DNA of 62,689 nt from Rhodoplanes sp. GTDB lineage: Bacteria; Pseudomonadota; Alphaproteobacteria; Rhizobiales; Xanthobacteraceae. The position numbers and the translations under genes are program-made. The stretch lies in contig NZ_JACAAX010000039.1 in the NCBI RefSeq assembly GCF_013377085.1, forward strand, positions 1 through 62,689, read 5' to 3'. The notes under the pieces are model-generated. The model worked only from the letters and a program-made list of their open reading frames with translations. It was not told the DNA's origin and did not search any database. The first letter of the stretch is position 1, and every line of letters starts with the position of its first letter. Positions 41,142 through 47,176 of the stretch are shown here, piece after piece.

Positions 41142-41696
41142 CTACCCGAAGAGGTCGGCGACCTCGACCACGAGACCGGGCGGATCGAGCCGTAACGCGC
41201 CGGCGGTGAGCGTGCTCGCCACGATGATGCTGTCGGCGGCGCGAGCGTGGTGGGTCACGATCCTCCCGTCCGGGTCGATGACCAGATAATGCCGCACGCT
41301 GGCGAGCTTGAAATAGCCGATCAGCTTGGCGCCGGTGTCGCGCTGCGCCGAGCGCGGCGAGACCACCTCGGCGACGATCACCGGGTCCGTCACGATCATG
41401 CCGGCGCCGGGCAGCGGCGCGCCGCAGCGGACCATCGCGTCGGGCTCGTAGGCCGTGCCGGCATCGATCGGCACCAGCATGCCGTTGGTGAAGGTCTCGC
41501 CGGCGAGCCCGGCTGCGTCGAGCGCGTGCTGCAGCACCCGCGCGGTCTTGAACTTGGTGCGATTGTGCGCCGATCCCTCCGGGGCGACCGCAACGATCTG
41601 CCCGTCGATCAGTTCGACATGCGGCGGTTCGGCATGGGCTTCGGCCCAGGCCAGGAAGGCCGACACCGTGATGGGGCGGGGTGTCGTCGCGGTCAT
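41142..41696 (-). CDS. Uma2-family (DUF820) PD-(D/E)XK nuclease-like protein
   Basis: 184 aa. Restriction-endonuclease-like fold: PPHVELIDGQIV, PDAMVRCG, IVAEVVSPRSAQRDTGAKLIGYFKL (E...D/K core) and VRHYLVIDPDGRIVTHH. Mainly abundant in cyanobacteria and actinobacteria; role unknown. Starts at ATG 41696. Tandem paralogue of the gene at 41789, sharing most motif segments, with 92 bp between them. Confidence 0.83.
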   Translation of the reverse strand: MTATTPRPITVSAFLAWAEAHAEPPHVELIDGQIVAVAPEGSAHNRTKFKTARVLQHALDAAGLAGETFTNGMLVPIDAGTAYEPDAMVRCGAPLPGAGMIVTDPVIVAEVVSPRSAQRDTGAKLIGYFKLASVRHYLVIDPDGRIVTHHARAADSIIVASTLTAGALRLDPPGLVVEVADLFG

Positions 41697-41788
41697 GGAC
41701 CGCGAATAGCACCCAAAACCGTGGAGCGGTAGGGGCCGGCGGATATCGGATTCATTGGCTGGGACGCTCGGCCCGGCCGAGGCCGGTG

Positions 41789-42343
41789 TCAGGCCAGGAG
41801 ATCGGCCACCTCGACCGCCAGTCCGGGCGGATCGAGCAGCAAGCGACCCGCCGAGAGCGTTCGCGCCGCGATGCTGCCGTCGGCGCTGCGGGCATGGTGC
41901 ATCACCGTACGGGTGTCCGGATCGATCACCAGATAGTGCCGCACGCTCGGCAGCTTGAAATAGCCGATCAGCTTCGCCGAGGTGTCGCTGTGCGCCGACG
42001 ACGGCGAGATCACCTCGACGACGATCACCGGGTCGGCCACGATCATGCCGTCGCCTGGCAGCGGCGTGCCGCAGCGGACCAGCGCATCGGGCTCGTAGGC
42101 CGTGAAGCTGTCGATCGGCACGGTCGGACCGTCCGGAAAGACCTCGCCGATCACGGCGGCCTTCGCCAGGGCCTCGCGCAAGGCGACGTAAGCCGAGGCC
42201 TTGATTCTGGTATGGACCAGGCGCTCGGACGCCATCATGACGATCTGCCCGTTGATCAGCTCGGCGCGCTGCGGCTCCTCCTGGGACGCGGCCCAGGCGA
42301 GAAACGCGTCCACGGTCATCATCGTGCGCAGCGGGATGTTCAT
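41789..42343 (-). CDS. Uma2-family (DUF820) protein, tandem paralogue
   Basis: 184 aa, ATG 42343. Same fold and length as its neighbour: QRAELINGQIVMM, PDALVRCGTPLPG, IVVEVISPSSAHSDTSAKLI and VRHYLVIDPDTRTVMHH. The pair probably arose by local duplication and has diverged in the N-terminal third. Possible DNA-processing or toxin-like activity is speculative. Confidence 0.83.
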   Translation of the reverse strand: MNIPLRTMMTVDAFLAWAASQEEPQRAELINGQIVMMASERLVHTRIKASAYVALREALAKAAVIGEVFPDGPTVPIDSFTAYEPDALVRCGTPLPGDGMIVADPVIVVEVISPSSAHSDTSAKLIGYFKLPSVRHYLVIDPDTRTVMHHARSADGSIAARTLSAGRLLLDPPGLAVEVADLLA

Positions 42344-42418
42344 GGGGCAAAGACTAGCATCCGCAACCGCGCGGCGGTAGGTGCGGCGGGTTCGGGATTC
42401 CATCGACGCCCGTCACTG

Positions 42419-42561: not shown

Positions 42562-44388
42562 TCACACGCCCTCGGCGACCTTGCGGCGCTCTTCCTTCTT
42601 GCGGTCGTTGGGGTCGAGGATGCGCTTGCGCAGGCGGATCGACTTCGGCGTCACCTCGACCAGCTCGTCGTTCTGGATGTAGGCGAGCGCCTTCTCCAGG
42701 CTCATCCGGATCGGCGGGGTGAGGCGCACGGCCTCGTCCTTCGACGTGGTGCGGATGTTGGTGAGCTTCTTGCCCTTGAGGACGTTGACCTCGAGGTCGT
42801 TGTCGCGGGTGTGCTCGCCGACGATCATGCCCTGATAGACCTTCCAGCCCGGCTCGATCATCATCGGGCCGCGGTCCTCCAGGTTCCACAATGCGTAGGC
42901 GACGGCCTCGCCGGCATCGGTGGAGATCAGCACGCCGGTGCGCCGGCCCTGCACCTCCCCCTTGTAGGGCGCGTACTGGTGGAACAGCCGGTTCATCACC
43001 GCGGTGCCGCGGCTGTCGGTCAGAAGCTCGCCCTGGTAGCCGATCAGGCCGCGGGTCGGCGCGTAGAACACCAGCCGGGTGCGGCCGCCGCCGGAGGGGC
43101 GCATCTCGATCATCTCGGCCTTGCGCTCCGACATCTTCTGCACGACGACGCCCGAGTACTGCTCGTCGACGTCGATCACCACCTCCTCGATCGGCTCGTT
43201 GATCTCGCCCGTCGCCTCGTCGCGCTGCATCAGCACGCGCGGGCGCGACACCGAGAGCTCGTAGCCCTCGCGCCGCATGGTCTCGATCAGAATGCCGAGC
43301 TGCAGCTCGCCGCGCCCGGCGACCTCCATCGAATCCTTCTCGTCCGACTCGCTGACCTTGAGCGCCACGTTCCCTTCCGCCTCGCGAAGCAGGCGGTCGC
43401 GGATCATGCGGCCCGTCACCTTGTCGCCCTCGGTGCCGGCGAGCGGCGAGTCGTTGACCCGGAACGTCATCGACAGGGTCGGCGGGTCGATCGGCTGGGC
43501 CGGCAGCGGCTCGGAGACCTCGAGGGCGCAGATCGTGTGGGCGACGGTCGCCTCCGGCAGACCGGCGACCGAGACGATGTCGCCGGCGACGCCCTCGTCG
43601 ACCGGCACGCGCTCCAGCCCGCGGAAGGCCAGCACCTTGGAGATGCGGCCGGTCTCGATGGTCTTGCCGTTGTGGTCGAGCACCTTGGCGGGCTGGTTCG
43701 GCTTGATGGTGCCGGACGTGATGCGGCCGGTGACGACGCGGCCTAGATACGGGTTCGCCTCCAGGATGGTGCCGAGCATGCGGAACGGGCCGTGCTCGAT
43801 GGTCGGCTCCGGCACGTGCTTGAGCACGAGATCGAGCAGCGGCGTCATCGTCTCCTTCGGGCCGTCGATGTTCGCCGCCATCCAGCCTTCCTTGGCGGAG
43901 CCGTAGAGCACCGGGAAGTCGAGCTGTTCGTCCGAGGCGTCGAGCGCCGCGAACAGGTCGAACACCTCGCTCGCCACCACGTCGGGCCGCGCGTCGCTGC
44001 GGTCGACCTTGTTGATGGCGACGATCGGCCGAAGGCCGATCTTCAGCGCCTTGGAGACCACGAACTTGGTCTGTGGCAGCGGGCCCTCGGCGGCGTCGAC
44101 CAGCACGATGGCGCCGTCCACCATGTTGAGGATGCGCTCGACCTCGCCGCCGAAATCGGCATGGCCCGGGGTGTCGACGATGTTGATGCGGACGCCCTTC
44201 CAGACGATCGAGGTCGCCTTGGCCAGGATGGTGATGCCGCGCTCGCGCTCCAGGTCGTTGGAGTCCATGGCGCGCTCGGCGACCCGCTGGTTCTCGCGGA
44301 AGGAGCCCGATTGCTGCAACAGCCGGTCGACCAAGGTGGTTTTCCCGTGGTCGACGTGGGCGATGATGGCGACGTTGCGGAGCTTCAT
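42562..44388 (-). CDS. typA: Translational GTPase TypA/BipA
   Basis: 608 aa, the expected length. Ribosome-binding GTPase that supports 50S assembly and stress growth. G1 AHVDHGKTT, switch region RERGITI, G3 DTPGHADF and G4 NKVD are intact. Domains II, III and V and the BipA-specific C-terminus ([20 protein letters not shown]) follow. Starts at ATG 44388 after a clear RBS; the 28 upstream in-frame residues are not conserved. Monocistronic. Confidence 0.95.
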
Positions 44389-44526
44389 GGGGGTCCCTTG
44401 AGAAACGGAAAGCGGGCCCCCGGGGCCCGCGAAACTTTGGGCGGAATATAGTCGAGGGCGGGCGAGAGGCAATGGCCCGGCTGGGACGAAACGTGAATCT
44501 GGCTGGCGCAGCAGCCCTGCGGAGGG

Positions 44527-44757
44527 TCACGGACCGCCGCCGGCACCCTCGATCGGCATGCGGCGCCGCCGCCAGCCGGCCCGGATGGTCGCCACGCCGC
44601 CGGCCGCGATGGCCACGCAGACGACCCACAGCAGCATCAGCGCCGGCTCGGCGAAGCTCTTCGGGTCGCTGATCCCGATGCCGACCGCGAAGGCGACCGC
44701 GCACACCCCGGGCAGCACCAGGATGGCCCCGACGATGATCAGAAGGACGGCCAGCAT
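44527..44757 (-). CDS. Small membrane protein downstream of the radical SAM operon
   Basis: 76 aa from ATG 44757. Two hydrophobic helices (about 3-25 and 36-58) and a basic tail (RAGWRRRRMP). No family recognised. It lies 28 bp after another small membrane protein gene at the end of the Lgt-like/radical SAM operon and is probably cotranscribed. Function unknown. Confidence 0.55.
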   Translation of the reverse strand: MLAVLLIIVGAILVLPGVCAVAFAVGIGISDPKSFAEPALMLLWVVCVAIAAGGVATIRAGWRRRRMPIEGAGGGP

Positions 44758-44785
44758 TCGGGGCTCCCCCGTTTGTGCGACGGTA

Positions 44786-45049
44786 TCATGACGCATCGCC
44801 CGGCGGCGCCCGATCAGCCTCCACCGGGCTCCGGCGCAACCGGCGGGCGCCCAGCAGCACCACGATACAGAAGATCCAGCCGATCGCCGACCCGATCAGC
44901 ATGACGACCGATACGCTCTGCGCGAGGGGATCCTTGTCGAACAGCAGCGCGCCGCCCGAAATGGTGAAAAACGCCGAGCACAGGCCGGATGGCAGCGCCA
45001 AGAGGCCGATCAGCACGGTGAGCACGACCTTTCGGCCGGTCTCGGTCAT
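44786..45049 (-). CDS. Small membrane protein coupled to the radical SAM gene
   Basis: 87 aa. Two transmembrane helices (about 9-31 and 46-68), then a basic tail RRLRRSPVEAD. Its ATG overlaps the radical SAM stop (ATGA), so it is translationally coupled and likely a membrane partner or anchor for that enzyme. No known family. Confidence 0.65.
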   Translation of the reverse strand: MTETGRKVVLTVLIGLLALPSGLCSAFFTISGGALLFDKDPLAQSVSVVMLIGSAIGWIFCIVVLLGARRLRRSPVEADRAPPGDAS

Positions 45050-46476
45050 GCGGGCGCTTCGGCGCGGGCGGTCGCGGCGAGCCGCGCCCGGATGCCGTCG
45101 ATCGCGCCGTCGCGATAGAGCAGGTTGTAGGTGTCGAACGGGATGATTTGCCCGGCCGGCGTGACGAAGTGGATGCAGGAACGCTTGACGCCGCCGAGAC
45201 AGAAGTTGAAGCGGTCCATGAACTGCACGATCGCCACCCGGAAGACGTTCTCGTAGGACAGGCCGGCCGGCACCGTCGCCTTCGGCAGGCAGCACAGGAA
45301 CTCGGCCAGCCGCTCGGGCGCGTTGAGCGCGCCCGACGACAGCGAGAACAGCTCGATGAACTTCTGCTGCAGGGCCGGCTGCTTCTCGAAATTGATGGTG
45401 TTCGGCATCACGGCGACCAGATCCTCGCGCGACAGCATCGCGGTCACGGGCAGCACGCGCTCGCCGTTGCGCAAGCCATAGCCGATCGAGATCGTCTCCG
45501 GATTGCACGGCAGCGGGATCATGTCGGCGTCGCCGAACACGCCGGAGTCCTCGATCACGCGGCGCCTGATCTCGGACAGCACGATGCGGTTTCGTTTCGA
45601 GTCGAAGCTCTCGTTGCGGCCGGCGTCCTGGACGGGCTGGAACGTCACGCCGCGCACGCAGCGCCAGGTCAGCGCATGCTTCACGATGGCGCCGACCTCG
45701 TGATCGTTGACGCCGCGCTTCACCGTGACGACCAGGGTGGTCGAGAGACCGTGCCGCTCCAGATTCTCCAACGCCTCCCGGCGCACACGCCGCAGATCGG
45801 CGCCGCGCAGATCCATCAGGGCGTCGCGCGTCAGCGAATCGAACTGCAGATAGATTTCCAGCCCGCGCTTCCTCTCGGCAAGCCGGGCACAAAAATCCGG
45901 GTCGCGCGCCAGCAAAAGCCCGTTGGTGTTGACCATCACGTGGCGGATCGGCCGCTTTCGCGCCGCGTCCAGGATGGCGAAAAAGTCCGGATGCAGGGTC
46001 GGCTCGCCGCCGGAGATCTGCAGCAGATCCGGCTCGCCTTCGCTCGCGACCAGCGCGTCGAGCATGCGCTCGATCGTCGCCAGCGGCAGATGCGTCGTGT
46101 GCTGCGGCGACGAGCCGGCGAAGCACACCGGGCAGGTGAGATTGCAGTGGTCGTTGATCTCGATGAGGGCGAGGCACGAGTGCTGCTCGTGGTCGGGGCA
46201 CAGGCCGCAGTCGTACGGGCAGCCGTGCTCGGTGCGGCCCTGGAACACGAGCGGCTTGTCGCCCGGCTTGATGTAATCCTTGCAGCGCTTCCAGTAGGCG
46301 GCGTCGGTCGAGATCAGGGTCGACTGCACGCCGTGCCTGTCGCAACGCTTCTCGTACCAGACCTCGTCCCCAAAGATCTGAATCTTGGCCGGCACCAGCG
46401 CCAGGCAGGTCTCGCACAGCGACGTGGTCTGGCCCCAGAACACATAGGGCCGCGATCTACGCGACGGTGCGGTCAT
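45046..46476 (-). CDS. Radical SAM enzyme resembling the tetraether synthase (Tes/MJ0619) family
   Basis: 476 aa. Canonical radical SAM ligands C111-x3-C115-x2-C118 (HCNLTCPVC). Before them are C21-x2-C24 and C45 in a rubredoxin-like zone, then GCPYDCGLCPDH (C86, C90, C93) and C101, suggesting extra metal sites. Further Cys lie in LPCNPETI, FLCCLPK and SCIHFV. This layout matches the archaeal enzyme family that joins lipid chains to make membrane-spanning tetraethers, as I recall it; bacterial relatives are thought to couple or modify acyl chains. It overlaps the Lgt-like gene by 20 bp. Start chosen at ATG 46476. Confidence 0.82.
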   Translation of the reverse strand: MTAPSRRSRPYVFWGQTTSLCETCLALVPAKIQIFGDEVWYEKRCDRHGVQSTLISTDAAYWKRCKDYIKPGDKPLVFQGRTEHGCPYDCGLCPDHEQHSCLALIEINDHCNLTCPVCFAGSSPQHTTHLPLATIERMLDALVASEGEPDLLQISGGEPTLHPDFFAILDAARKRPIRHVMVNTNGLLLARDPDFCARLAERKRGLEIYLQFDSLTRDALMDLRGADLRRVRREALENLERHGLSTTLVVTVKRGVNDHEVGAIVKHALTWRCVRGVTFQPVQDAGRNESFDSKRNRIVLSEIRRRVIEDSGVFGDADMIPLPCNPETISIGYGLRNGERVLPVTAMLSREDLVAVMPNTINFEKQPALQQKFIELFSLSSGALNAPERLAEFLCCLPKATVPAGLSYENVFRVAIVQFMDRFNFCLGGVKRSCIHFVTPAGQIIPFDTYNLLYRDGAIDGIRARLAATARAEAPA

Positions 46477-47176
46477 TCGGGTCTCCCGGTTCGGGCGCGG
46501 TCGCCAGCATGACGACGGCCCAGACGACGAGCGCGGCGGAGAGCAGGTGGAACACCGTGAACGGGCCGACCAGCGTGCCATAGGGCTTGAGGAATTCCCA
46601 GGCGAAGCGCTGCGCCCCGTAGAACCCGACCGCCGCATAGAACCCTCGGTCGATCCAGGCGGTGTCGCGGTTCATCACCTTGACCACGTAGAGGAGCGCG
46701 AACGTCGTCATGGCGGCGCTCTCATAGAGCTGCACGGGATGGCGAAGAACACCGTCGCCGAAATCGTGGCCCCACGGCAGCGTCGTCGGCGTGCCGTGGG
46801 TGAAATCCTCGATGCCGGCGAGGTGGCAGCCGATGCGGCCGACCGCGACGCCGACGGCGAGCGGCAGGGCGAAGCGTGCGCCGGTGCGCAAGCGCAGGCC
46901 GGTGGCGTATTTGTAGAGCTCGACCGCGACAATGCCGCCGGCGATCGCGCCCTCGATCGAGCGGCCGGCGCCCGGCATGCCCGAGACCGTCATGTTGAGC
47001 GTGCCGAACAGCACGGCGCCGAGGCCGGCGCCCAGCACGACGGCGGCGATGTAGGGCAGGTCGGTGGTCGCGGCCGGAAAGGCGATCTTTTGCACGCGTG
47101 TCAGCCACAGGGCGGCGAGCCCCGCGGCCATCCAGGCGAAAACGTCGAAGACGGTGTGGAGGACAAGTCCGGACAT
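46457..47176 (-). CDS. Diverged prolipoprotein diacylglyceryl transferase (Lgt)-like protein
   Basis: 239 aa, about seven transmembrane helices; shorter than Lgt (about 290). Lgt moves diacylglyceryl from phosphatidylglycerol to lipoproteins. Kept here: GRIGCHLAG (R114, equivalent to the essential Arg of GRIGN) and RHPVQLYES. Changed: the segment matching HGG of Lgt reads IEGAIAGG, so the position of the essential His is Glu (E75). The protein is therefore probably not the housekeeping Lgt but a paralogue acting on a glycerolipid. It is the first gene of the operon with the Tes-like radical SAM enzyme. Confidence 0.78.
   Translation of the reverse strand: MSGLVLHTVFDVFAWMAAGLAALWLTRVQKIAFPAATTDLPYIAAVVLGAGLGAVLFGTLNMTVSGMPGAGRSIEGAIAGGIVAVELYKYATGLRLRTGARFALPLAVGVAVGRIGCHLAGIEDFTHGTPTTLPWGHDFGDGVLRHPVQLYESAAMTTFALLYVVKVMNRDTAWIDRGFYAAVGFYGAQRFAWEFLKPYGTLVGPFTVFHLLSAALVVWAVVMLATAPEPGDPNDRTVA

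Follow-up and report, generated by a model that had tools for sequence, protein, structure and literature searches.

We analysed a 62,689-nt stretch of DNA from Rhodoplanes sp. (contig NZ_JACAAX010000039.1, positions 1 to 62,689, hereafter the window) and found that it carries a conserved three-part membrane system, in which a paralogue of the lipoprotein-lipidating enzyme Lgt, a radical S-adenosylmethionine (SAM) protein from a distinct clade beside the tetraether synthase Tes and cysteine-bearing membrane proteins co-occur across many phyla. The small membrane proteins belong to this system as its conserved third component and are not an addition to it. The four open reading frames (ORFs) are intact and all located on the minus strand: the lgt-like gene (46457..47176, 239 aa), the tes-like gene (45046..46476, 476 aa), and small-1 (44786..45049, 87 aa) and small-2 (44527..44796, 89 aa), each coding for a small protein with two predicted transmembrane helices (2-TM). 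The lgt-like and tes-like genes overlap by 20 nt, the tes-like gene is coupled to small-1 via an ATGA, and small-1 and small-2 overlap by 11 nt; overlap of each minus-strand neighbour with the next indicates a single operon. A first-pass annotation of the sequence had described this layout, an lgt-like gene overlapping the gene of a 476-aa radical SAM protein and two small membrane proteins next in the operon, one of them ATGA-coupled, and all of it was confirmed. The host genome comprises 6.48 Mb and is 99.6% complete, and the nearest named relatives, judged by identity of the radical SAM protein, are Rhodoplanes elegans (86%) and R. tepidamans (87%).

The linkage of the lgt-like and tes-like genes is real and goes beyond chance. 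In an order-level sample of 249 genomes, drawn evenly from a larger group, the lgt-like gene was found in 11 genomes and the tes-like gene in 13, with all 11 among the 13. In each of these 11 genomes the lgt-like gene overlaps the tes-like gene beside it or is separated from it by no more than about 460 nt; the tes-like matches in the other two genomes are remote (34% and 39% identity). Among the best 80 of 134 confirmed loci we identified 65 with an Lgt-like ORF, which in all 65 overlaps the tes-like ORF or is located no more than 0.8 kb away, so that the conserved linkage on which the first-pass annotation depended is present. The 15 loci without an Lgt-like ORF comprise a distant Chloroflexi group (12 loci, L071-L082), two loci that start at a contig end (L006, L031) and a gap (L058). 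The pair is present in Proteobacteria, Paenibacillus, Bacteroidota, Acidobacteria, Chloroflexi, Actinobacteria and Thermoplasmatota archaea. Records from a plasmid collection (Mycobacterium branderi, M. avium, Nonomuraea and Persicobacter) contain the pair too. Of 194 Thermoplasmatota genomes, five carry a single LGT-family gene each (80-97 bits), and every time a tes-like gene comes next, truncated where the contig stops in L132 and L209. These archaeal loci lie at 3395-5700 in L049, 5408-7395 in L132, 4247-6471 in L208, 1980-3001 in L209 and 4529-6789 in L210; misbinning was checked by their recurrence in five genomes and by the joint clade of the tree members only. On the M. branderi and M. 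avium plasmids (L148, 4232-7452; L211, 2111-5431) a single run of genes comprises an Lgt-like gene, a pair of small hypothetical genes and the gene of the radical SAM protein. Locus L061, filed as Nitrospirota, is nested among the alphaproteobacterial rows of the radical SAM tree, and may therefore be misbinned or recently transferred.

By profile the lgt-like protein belongs to the Lgt family, with a Pfam LGT score of 66.7 bits (cut-off 24.9) and an hhalign probability of 99.9 (E 1.1e-32, 219 columns) against a profile of 18 unlinked Lgts, namely the window genome's own Lgt and 17 others. These 18 were kept from 21 by length (>200 aa), and among the 18, L166 (142 bits) and L168 (161 bits) each represent the second Lgt copy of a genome. 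The protein is a diverged paralogue, as first annotated, and was ruled out as the only Lgt of its genome by a canonical Lgt of 249.5 bits on another contig. Likewise 33 of 34 pair-carrying genomes encode a further Lgt away from the pair that scores 174 bits or more, the exception being the archaeal metagenome-assembled genome (MAG) G019; this test covered 36 genomes, including two Chloroflexi without the linked pair. Escherichia coli Lgt needs Y26, H103, R143, N146, G154 and R239 (PMC13251419). The window protein retains R114 (E. coli R143), R190 (R239), Y186 (Y235) and G128 (G154), and has H7 for Y26, E75 for H103 and C117 for N146, so that both the arginine and the glutamate at the Lgt histidine position that had been pointed out at first align as described. 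Counts over the family are based on 74 paralogue rows, as of 75 linked loci one Lgt-like row was dropped for length (≤170 aa), and six duplicate or clipped loci (L002, L083, L086, L116, L122, L124) were left out of the paralogue and small-protein counts. None of the 74 paralogues has lost the equivalent of a lipid-handling residue (R143, G154, Y235 or R239). The Y26 column is His in 72 rows, with one gap and one Tyr, the N146 column is Cys in 73 and Asp in one, and R246 is mostly replaced by Lys. At the H103 column we found V in 33 rows, A in 16, E in 10, L in 10, M in 3 and T and I in one each, and in none His or the Y, W or F of other Lgts. All ten Glu residues belong to the Rhodoplanes/Bradyrhizobium branch with L005; with other residues elsewhere, E75 marks a lost histidine and not a conserved replacement, and a role as catalytic stand-in was ruled out. 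As some residues essential in Lgt are kept and Y26, H103 and N146 are altered, the active site appears to be rebuilt rather than simply retained. Phylogenetically the paralogues form one clade (60 rows, support 100/99) apart from the unlinked Lgts in a tree of 79 rows, one of three trees with hand-chosen rows (126, 84 and 79), and the lgt-like gene is under constraint, with a ratio of nonsynonymous to synonymous substitution rates (dN/dS) of ~0.34.

The tes-like protein belongs to the Tes superfamily and is not Tes itself. Two NCBIfam models score highest on it, neither of them reaching its cut-off: TrsS (NF045646), with 301.8 bits against 490 for a match spanning residues 16-457, and Tes, with 267.1 bits against 450. 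Its closest solved relative is Tes (PDB 7TOL, E 5.2e-62), and its AlphaFold2 (AF2) model matches 7TOM with a TM-score of 0.81 (Foldseek); the model has a predicted local distance difference test score (pLDDT) of 84.0, with residues 349-377 and 395-404 below 50. The cysteine groups named in the first-pass annotation were all recovered: C21/C24/C45, which with H48 form the rubredoxin-type CX2CX20CX2H site of Tes, C86/C90/C93 with H96 as its N-terminal cluster (CX3CX2C + His), the radical SAM CX3CX2C motif (C111/C115/C118), and in addition C101, C324, C395/C396 and C434. The latter are specific to the family, being conserved in 78 (C101), 78 (C324), 76 (C395), 71 (C396) and 77 (C434) of 78 rows of the Lgt-linked set; three loci of this set (L006, L031, L058) showed no Lgt and a fourth, L141, falls in another clade, and a further five loci (L114, L115, L117, L120, L123) were left out of the cysteine column counts. 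Three C-terminal cysteines of Tes, which we take to be ligands of its C-terminal cluster, occupy window columns 328, 433 and 448 and are Cys in 24, 24 and 23 of 24 Thermoplasmatota Tes rows, and in only 14, 7 and 7 of the 78 Lgt-linked rows. Met439, named for the same cluster (PMC9433317), corresponds to Val417 in the pairwise alignment with 7TOL, with the numbering offset worked out by hand. In the mechanism proposed for Tes the C-terminal cluster forms a sulphur-carbon intermediate with the lipid (PMC9433317), and Tes chemistry can therefore not be taken for granted here. In an 84-row tree archaeal and acidobacterial Tes group together (30 rows, support 100/100). The Lgt-linked set, represented there by 37 rows with L058 and L141 among them, has 36 of these in a clade of its own (100/98). 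The exception, L141, falls in the Chloroflexi group, and yet its locus has an Lgt-like gene, with a membrane protein between the two. The likeness to Tes that had been claimed at first thus stands for superfamily, fold and cysteine sites, and fails for the clade and the three C-terminal cysteines; placement of the radical SAM protein away from Tes, which had been named as a point against it, was partly observed. Membership in Tes was rejected on score, clade and C-terminal cysteines together. The tes-like gene has a dN/dS of ~0.23. True Tes was found in Acidobacteria in 24 of 119 genomes over the cut-off, and in L173-L202 an acidobacterial Tes branch was noted in longer stop-to-stop frames, nested in Tes and distinct from the Lgt-linked family.

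Small 2-TM ORFs were found in 72 of the 75 linked loci (103 in total, cluster scan), with one to six co-encoded small membrane proteins per locus; none was seen in L045, in L051, where lgt lies near the contig end, and in L132, where the contig ends within the tes-like gene. Their position varies: they follow tes in Alphaproteobacteria, Paenibacillus and Bacteroidota, precede or overlap lgt in Massilia and Collimonas, and lie between lgt and tes in Mycobacterium. A scored cysteine is present in 100 of the 103 ORFs; cysteines ≤10 residues from the chosen start were not scored, and two of the three remaining ORFs have such a Cys. The cysteine is found a median of 19 residues past the last Lys/Arg (quartiles 16 and 20; n=100), with Gly at -2 in 67 of the 100 proteins and at -1 L in 43, A 14, V 12, I 6, T 6, S 5, G 5, F 4, M 3 and Q 2. 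These residues depart from the lipobox [LVI][ASTVI][GAS]C, and the window motifs are SGLC in small-1 (LPSGLC-S, C24, codon 44980-44978) and PGVC in small-2 (LPGVC-A, C32, codon 44703-44701). In an alignment of 14 small proteins from the window, Rhodoplanes, Bradyrhizobium and the MAG locus L005 only one Gly and the Cys are invariant (G23 and C32 in small-2). A stricter first pass gave 85 small ORFs in 55 of the 75 loci, with Cys in 83 and [GAS]xC in 76, against 41 and 19 of 94 control 2-TM ORFs elsewhere in the same loci; the control ORFs are not proven genes and related loci are not independent. Of 26 sister loci that lack Lgt, three have a small 2-TM ORF, with [GAS]xC in two. As counts from related loci are not independent, the weight rests on co-occurrence across phyla and on the genome samples. 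In the family-level sample of 119 genomes, which shares genomes with the order-level sample and is not independent of it, small-protein profile matches below 1e-6 occur in nine genomes, exactly the nine with the lgt-like gene, on the same contigs and within ~3 kb of it. Six other genomes of the sample gave marginal best matches only (1.2e-4 to 6.9e-4), and since the profile was built from this family and at most 45 candidates were scored per genome, weaker relatives could be missed. Three archaeal loci extend past the tes-like gene (L049, L208, L210); their third gene is larger and shows no other likeness to the small genes, yet its product ends in a helix with FGC, GLC or GFC. L212 has six tandem copies, all PGxC, and as it is the same contig as L005 these are not an independent case. 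Constraint is clear for small-1 (dN/dS 0.30 and 0.46; dN 0.223, dS 0.736 versus L004) and weak for small-2 (0.66 and 0.80; dN 0.408, dS 0.62 versus L004). No Pfam family scored over its cut-off for small-1. A reading of the small proteins as holins was dropped, as the Phage_holin_3_6 matches (E 3.7e-4 to 0.28) are all under the cut-off and the small genes track lgt-like.

Taken together the three parts may well constitute a dedicated cysteine-lipidation system for the co-encoded membrane proteins, a reading that we favour tentatively and that the first-pass annotation, which had recognised the conserved operon of an Lgt paralogue and a Tes-superfamily radical SAM enzyme, had missed by leaving out the cysteine of the small proteins. 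The Lgt family lipidates a Cys at the outer end of a hydrophobic segment, and the linked small proteins keep such a Cys and little else, which makes them plausible substrates of the paralogue, with a chance that we place a little below even. The paralogue, with an active site rewired by His for Y26, Cys for N146 and no His at 103, would attach a glycerolipid to the small-protein Cys, late in the predicted transmembrane helix. The residue before the Cys (often G-L-C) would block removal by signal peptidase II, and without this cleavage the small protein would stay a lipidated two-helix membrane protein; departure of the -1 residue from the lipobox rule fits an enzyme that has specialised, and fits a protein that is not cleaved. 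In the cytosol the radical SAM enzyme, which has the Tes fold with other C-terminal cysteines, would attack an unreactive C-H bond, either of the lipid tail or of the small protein, and this radical step might join or alter the attached chain, a guess from family chemistry. In its most elaborate form, which we consider unlikely, there would be a second pathway of cysteine lipidation in bacteria and some archaea, in which the paralogue lipidates an uncleaved intramembrane lipobox and the Tes-like enzyme fuses the lipid to a neighbouring chain via a C-C or C-S bond, giving protein-anchored and possibly membrane-spanning lipids.

Several observations weigh against a lipidation system. H103 and N146 are changed in 74 of 74 paralogues and Y26 in 72, all of them essential in E. 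coli Lgt, and the paralogue may therefore not be a transferase at all. Among the 18 unlinked Lgts N146 is Cys in three and Y26 is His in one, so that neither change alone marks the paralogue. The AF2 model of the lgt-like protein is confident (pLDDT 91.8) and contains seven long helices, yet Foldseek gave no PDB match with E ≤ 0.001 (best E 0.43) and no Lgt among the best 50 of 159 matches; the structure comparison proposed in the first-pass annotation thus succeeded for the tes-like protein only. The small-protein motif breaks the published lipobox rule, which demands [GAS] at -1 (PMC4728403). L045 has the pair and no small protein was found there, the fourth ORF of L015 lacks a Cys, and small proteins of the same locus align Cys on Cys in only 27 of 44 pairs, a set that includes doubtful ORFs; pairwise alignment of the tandem proteins was too loose to serve as support. 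Topology and "outer end" of the small proteins are hydropathy-based guesses, and the limits given above for the control ORFs and the profile apply here as well.

The proposal of the first-pass annotation was centred on lipids: the radical SAM enzyme would join or alter phospholipid acyl tails, the Lgt paralogue would bind or exchange phosphatidylglycerol head groups, and the small proteins would be accessory or anchoring. We regard this as rather doubtful, though it has some points in its favour, as Tes is the nearest characterised enzyme by both sequence and fold, density in Tes was read as bacterial phosphatidic acid (PMC9433317), bacterial Tes homologues have been proposed for branched glycerol dialkyl glycerol tetraethers (PMC8941075) and phosphatidylglycerol is the Lgt donor (PMC4728403). 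On the other hand the radical SAM protein lies outside the Tes clade, the three cysteines of archaeal Tes are rarely kept, and Acidobacteria carry true Tes as a separate family. Membrane-spanning or ether-modified lipids as the product are not favoured, given the separate clade and the loss of the Tes C-terminal cysteines in most members. The lipid-centred reading also leaves unexplained why the small proteins retain one Cys and little else.

A peptide-centred explanation, in which the Lgt paralogue only presents the small protein without lipid transfer and the radical SAM enzyme modifies it (e.g. by a thioether at the Cys), much like a membrane-bound ribosomally synthesised and post-translationally modified peptide (RiPP), appears less likely again. 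The loss of H103, N146 and Y26 and the tandem arrangement of up to six small ORFs would fit it, and the next Foldseek matches of the tes-like model after Tes are the RiPP enzymes SkfB and SuiB, with TM-scores of 0.33-0.37 only. However, retention of R143, R239 and Y235 in 74 of 74 paralogues is odd for a mere scaffold, the Cys is predicted to face outward, on the other side of the membrane from the radical SAM enzyme in the cytosol, and the Pfam scans gave no RiPP-recognition domain, with no search for leader peptides made. Under the ordinary explanation, the Lgt copy has decayed and its radical SAM neighbour is unrelated to it, or the small proteins are no more than common filler of membranes. 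This could draw on the lost catalytic histidine, the sporadic distribution (11 of 249 genomes) and the weak constraint on small-2, but is highly improbable in view of the co-occurrence and adjacency across phyla and in archaea, with the order and family samples contradicting it, the low dN/dS of the lgt-like and tes-like genes and the single paralogue clade.

Regarding the surroundings of the operon, a large minus-strand gene follows at window 42562-44472, 54 bp past small-2, and we take it to resemble TypA/BipA. In L212 (4097-4429, on the L005 contig) the start of a similar gene seems to come after the small genes, and the insertion site may therefore be shared. Farther on, at window 41142-42403, two adjoining minus-strand ORFs share a stretch like 'FLAWA....EP...ELI.GQIV' and are apparently tandem copies of one family, possibly Uma2-like. 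Among the radical SAM loci without Lgt, L073 and L074 of the Chloroflexi have, either immediately downstream of the radical SAM gene or one ORF further on, ORFs that begin alike with E-I-x-A-C-C-A. In four haloarchaeal members on plasmids (L147, L149, L151, L152) and a Mycolicibacterium plasmid member (L146) an annotated methyltransferase gene, not Lgt, directly follows, and depending on the locus redoxin or thioredoxin, DUF547, DsrE, TauE, CcdA or disulfide-oxidoreductase genes are found nearby. These neighbours hint at thiol or metalloid chemistry.

Known lipoprotein lipidation goes via Lgt on lipobox signal peptides, and the three-part system points to a separate pathway; judged from sequence and models, it suggests that membrane proteins or lipids are modified by a route not described so far. 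The prediction narrows to one Cys in a protein of ~80 residues. Lgt is reported absent from archaea (PMC13251419), though in five Thermoplasmatota genomes this paralogue is the only LGT-family gene that we found; the two archaeal lipoprotein enzymes known are non-homologous to the bacterial ones (PMC13251419) and were rejected as a link. Furthermore, what has been put forward as bacterial "Tes homologues", and as a marker for the production of membrane-spanning lipids, falls into at least two families, and producer counts made with loose cut-offs may be too high.

In the literature searched, which left most subscription papers outside, we found no description of the lgt-like/tes-like pair or of the small proteins, in agreement with the first-pass statement that the combination is undescribed. 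Second Lgt copies and variants were recorded in a 2026 survey of Lgt (PMC13251419), and bacterial Tes homologues of untested function by Zeng et al. (PMC8941075) and in a Black Sea survey (PMC11868695). Known Lgt transfers diacylglycerol from phosphatidylglycerol to the lipobox Cys at the periplasmic face (PMC4728403). With E. coli Lgt (5AZB/5AZC) the paralogue shares the family by profile and the invariant R143, R239, G154 and Y235, and differs in Y26H, the missing H103, N146C, a mostly R246K change, its own clade and the adjoining radical SAM gene. Y26H and N146C are likewise combined in the second Lgt homologue of M. smegmatis, MSMEG_5408, which is reported as of presumed low activity (PMC13251419). 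In comparison with Tes/GDGT-MAS (MJ0619, 7TOL/7TOM), the tes-like protein has the same fold, rubredoxin-type site, N-terminal cluster and radical SAM motif, whereas it forms a separate clade, conserves another set of cysteines in place of the mostly absent C-terminal ones and stays below the family cut-off. TrsS gives its best NCBIfam score, but below the cut-off, and no methyltransferase neighbour is present, unlike in the haloarchaeal and Mycolicibacterium sister loci. The small proteins resemble bacterial lipoproteins in their positive residues, followed by a median of 16 residues without polar side chains and a Cys that is mostly followed by S, G or A, and differ from them in having G/A/S at -1 in only 24 of 100 cases, a second helix and little soluble domain.

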